This document shows, one piece after another, positions 36,630 to 39,342 of a stretch of DNA of 64,000 nucleotides (its first letter is position 1; each line of letters starts with the position of its first letter). The stretch covers positions 186,001 through 250,000 of the forward strand of contig NZ_SNWW01000008.1 of assembly GCF_004362015.1 (NCBI RefSeq), written 5' to 3'. The notes under the pieces are model-generated. The model made no database searches. It was not told the origin of the DNA and was given only the letters and a program-made list of their open reading frames with translations. The stretch comes from Flavobacterium chryseum (lineage in GTDB: Bacteria; Bacteroidota; Bacteroidia; Flavobacteriales; Flavobacteriaceae). The position numbers and the translations under genes are program-made.

Positions 36630-37013
36630 TTATTTCGATTTTTTATTAAAAATACCCTCTACAGCATCTTCAAAAATAGCTTCGCCAATGCTTTTCTTTT
36701 TGCTCCCACCCGGCATTGGTTCCGGTTCTATATTACTCATTTCCCTTTTAAGCAATAAATTAGTATTTGCAAAAGAATAATATTTTTGCGATTCGATTTT
36801 ATAAGGATTAAAGCCGGGTTTCGGATTGTAGATAGAAAACTGAACAGGAAAAATCAGGTATTTTTGATAATTTATAAAATAATTGTCTTTCTGTGAAAAT
36901 TCAAAATTTGCAATAGAACTATTGTTATTAAATGCAATTATTTTATCTGTTTTAGCTTGAGCGGATAAAACAGTTGTTGCCAGAAACACGAATATTAAAA
37001 TTAGCTTTCTCAT
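36630..37013 (-). CDS. small secreted protein of unknown function
   Basis: Starting at the ATG at 37013 gives a good signal peptide (MRKLILIFVFLATTVLSAQA) and a 127-residue product; a longer reading from 37049 would put 12 extra residues in front of it. The mature part is short, with aromatic-rich stretches (NYFINYQKYLIFPVQFSIYN) and a basic end (GSKKKSIGEAIFEDAVEGIF). No family was recognised. It lies downstream of the sulfation cassette on the same strand, 93 bases after the sulfotransferase stop, so co-transcription is possible but not shown. Confidence 0.65.
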   Translation of the reverse strand: MRKLILIFVFLATTVLSAQAKTDKIIAFNNNSSIANFEFSQKDNYFINYQKYLIFPVQFSIYNPKPGFNPYKIESQKYYSFANTNLLLKREMSNIEPEPMPGGSKKKSIGEAIFEDAVEGIFNKKSK

Positions 37014-37106: not shown

Positions 37107-38075
37107 TTAGCATTCTAAATGTTTGTATAGAGTATTATTCAGTTTTTCGTGCAAAATAATGAGTCTTGTAAAATCTATTTGTAAAGACTCTTCTTTAAAA
37201 AGATCTCCGGTAAAAATGGCCTTTTCATTTTTTGAATGTTTTTGTAAGCGATCATACATTTTGTCCAATTCGGTATTAGAATATTTGGTGTTAATGAATG
37301 ATAAAAATTGCTCAACAACTTGTTTCATTCCTTCATTATAATTAAGAACTGTTACATTTTCATCGCTCTCATAAAAATCCAGAAATCCCTGAAAATATTT
37401 CTCCAAAACTAATGCACCATATTGCTGAAAACTTATTTCATCAATTTCTTTCGCGAAAATCCCAAAAACATTTGGTGGCAACAGGTTAGGTACCATATGC
37501 ATTCCCATTTTTTTCTGATGTGACTTTAATACTTCTGTCGGATTTCTGTACAGCAAAGCAAAAGGTGTTTCCTGAAAAATTGATCTTAAAAATGAAGCGT
37601 TAAAAATATGCCAGGCATCGAGTTTTATAATCAAATGCTGTTGCTCCGTAAATCTTTTTTGGCCTAATAATTTTAATACTGATTTTATAAGAACCGTTTT
37701 TTTCTCCAAACTAAAAATGTTGCTTCTTAAAATTTGATCAATAATTGGTGCTTCAGAAATCATTATATTTTCTGCAGAAGTTACCAAAGACTGACTCAGC
37801 ATTGTAGAACCGCAGCGGGAAACATGAAAAAACAATGATTTTAATTCAACTGAAATTAGTTCTTCAGACCAATTTATCAGATTTTCTACAGTACTTATTA
37901 CCTTAAATGATTTTGAATTATAAGTAAGGCTTCGGCATTTCGAAATAGTTTCTTCAAAAAAAGGTTCGGCATATTTTAAATCAGCCAGATAAAACCATTC
38001 AAAATATATCTGATTATCTTTTTCTACCAAATTAATCGGAATCCAATTAAAGAGTGGATGGTTTATATTTTCCAT
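37107..38075 (-). CDS. sulfotransferase-family protein
   Basis: The 322-residue protein has a PAPS-binding P-loop-like motif LFFHVSRCGSTMLSQSL (about 81-97) and a second PAPS site LLYRNPTEVLKSHQKK (about 174-189; R and S are the usual 3'-phosphate ligands). These fit cytosolic PAPS-dependent sulfotransferases of the broad Sulfotransfer_3 type. There is no signal peptide or membrane helix. It follows the hydroxylase-like gene by 8 bases, and an APS kinase heads the operon, so PAPS supply and use are encoded together. The acceptor is unknown. Confidence 0.82.
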   Translation of the reverse strand: MENINHPLFNWIPINLVEKDNQIYFEWFYLADLKYAEPFFEETISKCRSLTYNSKSFKVISTVENLINWSEELISVELKSLFFHVSRCGSTMLSQSLVTSAENIMISEAPIIDQILRSNIFSLEKKTVLIKSVLKLLGQKRFTEQQHLIIKLDAWHIFNASFLRSIFQETPFALLYRNPTEVLKSHQKKMGMHMVPNLLPPNVFGIFAKEIDEISFQQYGALVLEKYFQGFLDFYESDENVTVLNYNEGMKQVVEQFLSFINTKYSNTELDKMYDRLQKHSKNEKAIFTGDLFKEESLQIDFTRLIILHEKLNNTLYKHLEC

Positions 38076-38083
38076 TTTGTAAA

Positions 38084-38767
38084 TTATTTTGTTTGAAGTT
38101 CTGCAATAATTTTAGCTGTTGCATCTGATGGATTTCGGGAAAGTTCAGCAATTATTTGTTGTTTTACTTCGTCTGAATATTCAGTTTTATTTGGAGAATA
38201 ATGAACATCAAAACCCATTTTAGAAAATAATTCATCAGACCAATCGTTTCTTATACAATCAATTGTAAAATGAATACGCGGTTCAGCACTTTTGTTTTCT
38301 ACGCTATGCGGCAATTGAAAATTAGCATGCCAGCATTCTCCCATTTTCATCGGAACCAGTTTTTTATCTACATAAAAATATACTTCTGAGTTTGTGATAA
38401 TAGGTATATGAATTCTAAAAAAACCATCTTCATACGAAGTATCATTATCTACATGTTCTTTAATCTCACTTTGCGGATCTAAACGAAGTAATCTGACCGC
38501 TTCTTTTTCGCATTGAAACCAATCCATAATTTCTTTAAAATAATGACATTGATCCAGTAAACTTGTGTCTTTATATTCCTTGTTAGCAAAAGACATGATA
38601 TCGTTAACCAAACCAGATTGCGATCTTAAAGAAACGCTTGTCCAGTTTCCTTCGTATCGGTTTGTATTAAAATGCGGTGTCCATAAATTATTTTCGCATA
38701 TAATAAGATCATTTTGTAATTTATCAACAGAAAAAGAAATCGGAAGTTTACTGGAAGAAGGATTCAT
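38084..38767 (-). CDS. aspartyl/asparaginyl beta-hydroxylase family dioxygenase
   Basis: The 227-residue protein has a double-stranded beta-helix core of PF05118 type: HVDND (His about 104, with Asp two residues on), RIHIPI, then ECWHANFQLPHSVENKS with the distal His near 153 and EPRIHFTIDCIR with the 2-oxoglutarate-binding Arg. Family members hydroxylate Asp/Asn side chains or related beta carbons using Fe(II) and 2-oxoglutarate. No signal peptide is seen. It lies between APS kinase (11-base gap) and sulfotransferase (8-base gap). A hydroxyl made here could be the sulfate acceptor, but that is inference. Confidence 0.82.
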   Translation of the reverse strand: MNPSSSKLPISFSVDKLQNDLIICENNLWTPHFNTNRYEGNWTSVSLRSQSGLVNDIMSFANKEYKDTSLLDQCHYFKEIMDWFQCEKEAVRLLRLDPQSEIKEHVDNDTSYEDGFFRIHIPIITNSEVYFYVDKKLVPMKMGECWHANFQLPHSVENKSAEPRIHFTIDCIRNDWSDELFSKMGFDVHYSPNKTEYSDEVKQQIIAELSRNPSDATAKIIAELQTK

Positions 38768-38778
38768 AATATTCTTAT

Positions 38779-39342
38779 TTACAAATTAGATTTTAATTCT
38801 ATAGTACCTGAATTTACATAAGACACATTCTCAATAATAAATTCATAAAGCTTGTTCGTAGAAAAAGAAACGGTTTCAGAATCTGTTTTCAATATTAAAT
38901 CTGCTTTTGTCGGAATCTCAAAAACATCGCTAATTCCCGTAAAATTTTTAATTTTATTACTATCGTTATCCGGAAGTAAAGCTTTTTTGTAAAGTCCTTT
39001 TGGATCTCTTTTAATGAGATTTTCTATTGAACAATCTAAAAATACAGTTCGGACAAATTCATAGTTTCTTAATTCATTTCGGAGATTTTCGTACGGATTT
39101 ATTACAGACATTAAAACGATTGTATCATTTTCAATAAAATTTCGTCCAACATGAAACAAACGCCTGACATTTTCGCATCTGTCATCTTTAGAAAATCCTA
39201 AATCCCTGCAAATTGTTTTACGATAAACATCTCCGTCAACTATTTCGGCTTTGTAACCATTTTCAATTAGCAAATAGCGAACATTTTCTGCCAATGTCGT
39301 TTTTCCCGATCCTGATAATCCTGTAAATTGTACTAAAATCAT
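38779..39342 (-). CDS. cysC: adenylyl-sulfate (APS) kinase
   Basis: The 187-residue kinase has Walker A GLSGSGKTTLAENV, the APS-site VDGDVYRKTICRDLGFSKDD followed by RCENVRR, and RDPKGLYKKA with IKNFTGISD, the complete CysC pattern. It phosphorylates APS to PAPS. No sulfate adenylyltransferase (cysD/cysN) and no PAPS reductase lies in the window. The next genes are a hydroxylase-like and a sulfotransferase gene, so here PAPS probably serves sulfation rather than assimilation. It is the first gene of a tight three-gene operon; no consensus -7 box was found upstream. Confidence 0.93.
   Translation of the reverse strand: MILVQFTGLSGSGKTTLAENVRYLLIENGYKAEIVDGDVYRKTICRDLGFSKDDRCENVRRLFHVGRNFIENDTIVLMSVINPYENLRNELRNYEFVRTVFLDCSIENLIKRDPKGLYKKALLPDNDSNKIKNFTGISDVFEIPTKADLILKTDSETVSFSTNKLYEFIIENVSYVNSGTIELKSNL

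Follow-up and report, generated by a model that had tools for sequence, protein, structure and literature searches.

Introduction

The closest described systems are two cyanobacterial gene clusters: the cylindrospermopsin cluster encodes the hydroxylase CyrI, the sulfotransferase CyrJ and the adenosine 5′-phosphosulfate (APS) kinase CyrN, and the saxitoxin cluster encodes the sulfotransferase SxtN and the kinase SxtO (PMC2885083). The same three enzyme types are encoded by adjacent genes in the stretch of DNA analyzed herein, 64,000 nucleotides of a Flavobacterium chryseum contig (NZ_SNWW01000008.1, positions 186,001 to 250,000; hereafter, the window): an APS kinase (APSK), a hydroxylase of the family PF05118 (HYD), and a predicted sulfotransferase (SULT) that would use 3′-phosphoadenosine 5′-phosphosulfate (PAPS). 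We describe the distribution of this cassette in Flavobacterium and beyond, its co-occurrence with genes for phage-tail-collar-like proteins, and the possibility that signal-less collar proteins (those without a signal peptide) are the acceptors of the sulfate.

The cylindrospermopsin locus unites all three enzyme types and the saxitoxin locus two of the three. The preliminary description of the window knew of no pathway with exactly this trio, a statement that does not stand beside CyrI, CyrJ, and CyrN, which are encoded inside a large nonribosomal peptide synthetase/polyketide synthase cluster (PMC2885083). The cyr and sxt enzymes modify what a larger biosynthetic cluster assembles, whereas the Flavobacterium trio stands alone and can be likened to them by enzyme type; it differs further in its PF05118 hydroxylase and in a genomic link to collar proteins. 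In the literature searched, which was judged by title and left out most subscription papers and all preprints, we found no trio that stands alone and is linked with collar proteins. As a combination of enzyme types the trio has a precedent; what is new is the lead to a collar acceptor, which can be tested.

The components also have described counterparts. The predicted sulfotransferase fold of SULT is also that of the tyrosylprotein sulfotransferases (TPSTs), and a protein acceptor is likewise proposed for SULT, but it is accompanied by a dedicated APS kinase and a hydroxylase and is 12–13% identical to the TPSTs over the aligned part. A bacterial protein sulfotransferase, RaxST, is known. HYD has profile, iron ligands, and fold in common with L-proline cis-4-hydroxylase and AspH, while its identity to the former (4p7w) is 19% in the fold comparison and it co-occurs with collar proteins and SULT. 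Finally, the likely partner proteins share the collar domain (PF07484) with gp12 of phage T4 and other tail-collar proteins (COG4675, the "microcystin-dependent protein"); in contrast to gp12, the collars of the loci read are encoded in one to three tandem copies beside binding-protein-like and formyltransferase-like genes.

Distribution of the cassette and of collar genes

SULT was present in 60 of 398 Flavobacterium genomes. A collar gene, scored as a PF07484 match at E ≤ 1e-10, was detected in 146 of the 398, namely in 58 of the 60 SULT-positive and 88 of the 338 SULT-negative genomes (Fisher 8e-27, kinship ignored); the two SULT-positive genomes without one are 70% and 81% complete. HYD was found somewhere in 59 of the 60 SULT-positive genomes (46 at 77–100% identity, 13 at 42–48%), the sole exception being 81% complete. 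Among SULT-negative genomes, HYD was detected in 14 of 45 that carry a collar gene versus 1 of 35 that do not, and this single case consists of two fragments with stops; with a later set (16 of 43), the overall count for collar-positive, SULT-negative genomes is 30 of 88.

SULT is thus nested within HYD, and HYD within collar, as would be expected if the collar protein were the acceptor, HYD made the hydroxyl, and SULT used it. The order suggested in the preliminary description, hydroxylation before sulfation, is supported by the fact that SULT is almost never found without HYD while HYD is often found without SULT, and we infer that the two steps would take place on the same residue. From this distribution and the gene neighborhoods below, we propose, with a confidence just short of even, that the trio is a dedicated modification unit for the hydroxylation and subsequent sulfation of signal-less collar proteins.

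Direct neighborhood with collar genes was seen mainly outside the typical Flavobacterium locus. A scan of named genomes returned 194 relatives of HYD, and the best 80 of the 194 were examined. Fifty-four were close Flavobacterium-type loci, all with HYD and SULT (54/54), 52 with a separate APSK and two with a fused one. The trio is present in F. johnsoniae strain CI04 (L146). Among the other 26, SULT adjoins HYD in four, from Spirosomataceae (L165), Emticicia (L171 and L175), and Cytophagales (L172), and all four clusters include APSK; in three of these (L165, L171, L172), tandem genes for collar-like proteins of 169–185 aa lie within a few genes. A phylum-wide search with a SULT profile matched 12 of 395 genomes and newly found G786 (locus L188) and G957 (L189) outside the family; SULT adjoins HYD in both, with three collar genes in the stretch of the former and one in that of the latter. 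Within Flavobacterium, the cassettes of L056 and L060 adjoin collar genes, and in L233, L262, and L284 a HYD accompanied by a second gene, F2 (described below), adjoins collar genes without SULT.

The collar proteins in the loci read are mostly 165–220 aa long and encoded in one to three tandem copies. A Pfam search confirmed the Collar domain in one of the L188 copies and in the only copy of the window's own genome, which is encoded on another contig, C6 (L194:9012-9566), is signal-less, and ends in GIFPSRN. H94 and H96 of the domain are invariant, and the proteins match tail fibres of both the short and the long kind (1ocy, 5iv5, 8kec). In a common module, one to three collar genes are accompanied by genes for a Peripla_BP_6-like and a formyltransferase-like protein; other modules do without these two.

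The C-terminus of the collar proteins was then compared with the presence of HYD, using hand-picked, non-random sets of 38 HYD-positive genomes (31 Flavobacterium and seven others; three of five collars read for G459) and 18 HYD-negative ones. The rule used to call signal peptides was a crude one based on hydrophobicity, slightly different in the prediction set below. Of the signal-less collars, 64 of 87 in HYD-positive genomes end in Arg-Asn (RN), versus 0 of 17 in HYD-negative genomes, although one of the latter 17 (L216_7888) looks signal-bearing by eye. The three collars of HYD-positive genomes flagged as having a signal have upstream extensions or are of another protein type (L200). All six RN-ending collars of HYD-negative genomes have Sec-like signals, and, counted per genome, 37 of 38 HYD-positive versus 5 of 18 HYD-negative genomes have an RN-ending collar, with or without a signal.

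For the 43 remaining collar-positive, SULT-negative genomes, a prediction from the collars was fixed before HYD was searched for. HYD was found in 16 of the 22 predicted positives and in none of the 21 predicted negatives, or in 14 of 20 versus 0 of 21 when two genomes in which HYD was already visible (G526 and G617) are left out; G575 has two collars, one of which was the basis for its positive score, and G638, whose collar was unread, was placed among the predicted negatives. Eight of the test genomes have a gene for a binding protein, but none for a formyltransferase, close to the collar; of these, three of the five with an RN-ending collar have HYD, as do none of the three without. A two-way rule was rejected, since six of the 22 genomes with a signal-less RN-ending collar lack HYD (G511, G519, G528, G530, G610, and G677). 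In Flavobacterium, then, HYD goes along with a signal-less RN-ending collar, though not every genome with such a collar has HYD, and the rule is one-way.

A second collar module was also noted, consisting of three collar genes and genes for proteins of about 165 and 99 aa (L195, L197, L201, L215, L223, L243, and L251); the two small proteins were clustered as a family in L195, L197, L201, and L172 and recognized by size and order in the others. The collars of those seven loci are not RN-ending, and the module is found in genomes with and without HYD. Beside HYD-SULT of G786 (L188:11115-19011) are genes for a lasso-peptide B2-like protein (NF033537, over the cut-off), an asparagine synthase, an NTP_transf_5 protein, and a formyltransferase-like protein, with the three collar genes interspersed. 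A PhyH-type 2-oxoglutarate oxygenase of about 304 aa recurs in or near HYD/collar clusters (L165:9604-10518, L171:9630-10544, L060:17966-18886, and also L172, L233, L262, and L284), and it is possible that it provides a second hydroxylation step.

Layout and conservation of the cassette

In the window, all three genes are on the minus strand, in the order APSK (38779–39342, 187 aa), HYD (38084–38767, 227 aa), and SULT (37107–38075, 322 aa). Open reading frames (ORFs) were called from the first ATG, GTG, or TTG, and overlapping ones were dropped; their positions and the gaps of 11 and 8 bases are as first noted. On one side of the cassette, past the small ORF at 36630, lies a SpoU-type methyltransferase gene (trmH), and on the other a gene of the SIR2 family (sir2). 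The genome is one of 5.0 Mb (G000), and its near relatives are named Flavobacterium.

To assess conservation, we compared 39 Flavobacterium loci (L034–L072) of about 20 kb each, of which L038 is shortened by a contig end; the addition of L093–L095 gives 42. In 37 of the 39 the cassette sits between trmH and sir2, and the recurrence of the same neighbors across Flavobacterium confirms that the adjacency of the trio is beyond chance. APSK was in the same cluster or fused in 39 of 39 loci and in 42 of the 42, including L066 and L070, where about 1 kb intervenes. Two kinds of fusion were found: APSK-HYD, of 409 aa, in two species (L054 and L067), and APSK-SULT in L069 and L094, from two genomes, where the fused proteins have 506 and 516 aa. 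In a family-wide draw of 299 genomes, SULT matched only the own genome and two of another genus, the latter at 26–30% identity.

HYD is the less constant partner. It is intact inside the cassette in 30 of the 39 loci, and 8 of the 39 are outright without it, while L056 has only a relic, so that HYD was ruled out as an indispensable cassette gene. Twelve of the 60 SULT-positive genomes have HYD only away from the cassette, and in G475 it is a separate neighbor. In the SULT tree, 11 HYD-less cassettes form one clade (100/100), sister to L056/L060, and because this clade is single, the replacement of HYD is, as read from the tree, one event and not 13. That function was apparently kept when the cassette HYD was replaced argues that SULT would need some HYD. 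The separate occurrence of the three genes in relatives, which the preliminary description had named as evidence against a joint pathway, was seen in part: HYD is frequently not linked to the other two, yet its co-occurrence with SULT persists.

The relic in L056 (L056:8868-9168) lies between APSK and SULT and adjoins a paralogous F2-HYD pair and two collar genes; the locus apparently represents an intermediate of the replacement. F2 encodes a protein of about 168 aa with a HEAGH motif and no Pfam match over the cut-off (e.g., L081:8921-9427 and L090:9854-10348). We read 17 loci in which HYD lies outside the cassette (L056 and L076–L091), and F2 is present in 15 of them. As a constant fourth gene it was ruled out for the own genome, in which it has no match.

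The variable placement of HYD bears on the view that APSK and SULT make up one sulfation unit and that HYD modifies another group in the same system, with SULT acting, for instance, on tyrosine. The HYD genes away from APSK-SULT, the occurrence of HYD without SULT, and the predicted fold of SULT, whose best matches are TPSTs tied with other sulfotransferases, would all suit such a division of labor. Against it stand the nesting of SULT within HYD, the APSK-HYD fusions, and the HYD-SULT adjacency kept in other families, and we consider it distinctly unlikely.

Among other neighbors, the small secreted protein at 36630–37013, which had been put forward as a possible further member of the cassette, is present in only 4 of the 39 loci and was discarded both as a member and as a scaffold. 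Further recurrent neighbors are a YARHG protein, a DUF2306 protein, and an unassigned protein of 319 aa. A gene for a 230-aa FA_hydroxylase (PF04116) is found beyond sir2 in 23 of the 39 loci (e.g., L035:6694-7386) and is absent from the window. Two genes from the only collar gene of the own genome, a protein of 2092 aa with SprB repeats and a type IX secretion system (T9SS) sorting domain is encoded (L194:10676-16954), and a similar protein of 1688 aa adjoins the collar in L060.

Such neighbors could speak for a surface polysaccharide or lipid as the substrate of SULT and a lipid as that of HYD, the link with collars being indirect, through a shared habitat. Some members of PF05118, such as OlsC and LpxO, are lipid hydroxylases, the FA_hydroxylase family recurs near the cassette, and both collar-adjacent giant proteins examined (L194 and L060) are T9SS surface proteins. 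Yet the best matches of HYD are hydroxylases of amino acids and peptides and one of a nucleoside antibiotic, the FA_hydroxylase gene is missing from 16 of the 39 loci and lies beyond sir2 where present, and a shared habitat leaves the direct clustering of HYD-SULT with collars in separate families unexplained. This is, in our opinion, very improbable, and the least probable of the explanations considered.

Predicted activities of the three enzymes

The key motifs of all three proteins, pointed out in the preliminary description, are intact in the sequences, and those of HYD and SULT are conserved in alignments of relatives. APSK matches the Pfam family APS_kinase (6.9e-41) and exceeds the curated cut-off of TIGR00455 (155.6 versus 138.7 bits); its P-loop, GLSGSGKTT, comprises residues 8–16 (39295–39321, minus strand). 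It is the sole APS kinase match of the own genome (one at E ≤ 0.001). Of ATP sulfurylase, the subunit CysD was the one searched for: TIGR02039 is over its cut-off in the own genome, on contig C3 while the cassette is on C8, and in 60 of 60 SULT-positive genomes. In agreement with the first account, no sulfate-assimilation genes were seen by eye near the cassette, among the ORFs between 30 and 46 kb of the window. Because APSK is the sole APS kinase found in the genome and CysD is on another contig, PAPS is probably made only at the cassette, for SULT.

SULT had no sensible Pfam or NCBIfam family over the cut-off (window protein); in a fused relative (L069), Sulfotransfer_3 reached 6.2e-5 and 23.8 bits, below its cut-off of 27. 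Nor was any sequence match found in the PDB, where a SULT profile search gave nothing convincing. The missing Pfam model weakens the filing of SULT in a family, not the evidence from fold and motifs. The structure model (mean predicted local distance difference test score, pLDDT, 87.7) gave 41 PDB matches at E ≤ 0.001 in Foldseek, and all 50 rows listed are sulfotransferases. In the VIA comparison the best match was 3ap3_C (Z 13.6, root mean square deviation 3.2, 209 aligned residues); the top seven rows are TPSTs (Z 13.1–13.6), and STF9, at 12.9, is tied with them within 1 Z. The putative 5′-phosphosulfate loop, FHVSRCGST (residues 83–91; 37803–37829, minus strand), has F83, H84, and S86–T91 invariant in an alignment of 18 rows, as are R177 and S185 of the R-x7-S motif (37521–37547, minus strand), whose part in binding the 3′-phosphate we assume from the sulfotransferase family. 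By predicted fold and conserved motifs, SULT is a PAPS-dependent sulfotransferase.

HYD, a putative Fe(II)/2-oxoglutarate hydroxylase, matches PF05118 at 1.6e-15 (57.7 bits, cut-off 22.6). The HVD motif with H105 and D107 (38447–38455), the distal H154 (38306–38308), and R164 (38276–38278), all on the minus strand, are invariant in alignments of 18 and 13 rows; following the PF05118 family, we take the first three residues to bind iron and R164, likely, to bind 2-oxoglutarate. Its sequence match in the PDB is 4p7w (2.1e-9), the L-proline cis-4-hydroxylase, and in Foldseek the model (mean pLDDT 90.0) likewise placed 4p7w first (2.3e-14) and AspH next; the predicted fold matches comprise the amino-acid, peptide, and nucleoside-antibiotic hydroxylases mentioned above. 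No viral relative of HYD was found in one scan of viral contigs, and a PHROGs search with SULT, HYD, and F2 gave no match.

A closest solved relative that hydroxylates a free amino acid raises the question of whether HYD hydroxylates, and SULT then sulfates, a small molecule (some conjugate or an unbound amino acid), for which the collars would be carriers or partners in display or delivery. Further hints in this direction are a weak match of HYD, far under the cut-off, to TIGR04531 (nonproteinogenic amino acid hydroxylase), and the fact that collar clusters also occur with Peripla_BP_6 binding-protein-like and formyltransferase-like genes. The cyanobacterial clusters apply these enzyme types to small molecules (PMC2885083). 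On the other hand, no assembly-line gene was found among the ORFs of at least 600 aa without a match in the window in the 39 loci of up to 20 kb, although small scaffold genes could escape such a search; those ORFs encode a TPR/cytochrome protein, a TonB receptor, a gyrase, and a SprB-repeat protein. In addition, the presence of HYD follows how the collar ends, a correlation not expected of a role in metabolism alone. A small-molecule substrate is rather unlikely in our estimation, if less so than the other alternatives.

Proposed pathway

If signal-less collar proteins are indeed the acceptors, the pathway would run as follows. ATP sulfurylase, whose CysD is encoded elsewhere in the genome, would make APS, which the APSK of the cassette would convert to PAPS. 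HYD would hydroxylate one residue of a signal-less collar-like protein, and SULT would use PAPS to sulfate the new hydroxyl. All steps would be cytoplasmic and take place before the collar protein reaches its working site. That the three enzymes belong to a single pathway, as envisaged in the preliminary description, is supported by adjacency, the two kinds of fusion, and co-occurrence; what that description had missed is the collar as the probable acceptor. A protein acceptor is also favored by the best structural matches of the SULT model, the protein-modifying TPSTs, although other sulfotransferases are tied with them.

The C-terminal Asn of the collar would be the most economical site, since the RN end tracks HYD, and it is favored also by the resemblance of the last residue of a chain to a free amino acid, the kind of compound on which the nearest solved relative of HYD acts. 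This is nonetheless the weakest part of the proposal, and we regard this particular residue as an improbable choice. As for the purpose, our guess is a change of charge on the tip of the trimeric collar that would alter its binding.

Several observations weigh against collar proteins as acceptors. Most Flavobacterium cassettes, that of the window included, are in the trmH-sir2 slot away from collar genes, and no collar gene was found within the stretch read of L175, with its HYD-SULT-APSK cluster. The co-occurrence counts ignore kinship, and the replacement of HYD is a single event in the tree. The six genomes with a signal-less RN-ending collar and no HYD indicate that the RN end may belong to the type of module; 23 of the 87 signal-less collars of HYD-positive genomes are not RN-ending, and collars without this end are encoded right beside HYD-SULT (two of three in L172, one of three in L188). 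The relationship of HYD, by sequence and fold, to a free-amino-acid hydroxylase, and the FA_hydroxylase gene near many cassettes, though not in the window, which fits a lipid pathway, count on the same side.

Significance

In the cassette, a dedicated source of PAPS is coupled with a hydroxylase, and the acceptor of the sulfate would thereby itself be enzyme-made. To our knowledge, bacterial protein sulfation is known from very few cases. It is possible, if doubtful, that the collars represent an undescribed one, in which they would be hydroxylated, perhaps at the C-terminal Asn of ...PSRN, and then sulfated, within a modular system having formyltransferase-like and binding-protein-like members. 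The proposal provides a concrete candidate substrate for three orphan enzymes, and a candidate role for a group of collar proteins present in more than a third of the Flavobacterium genomes.

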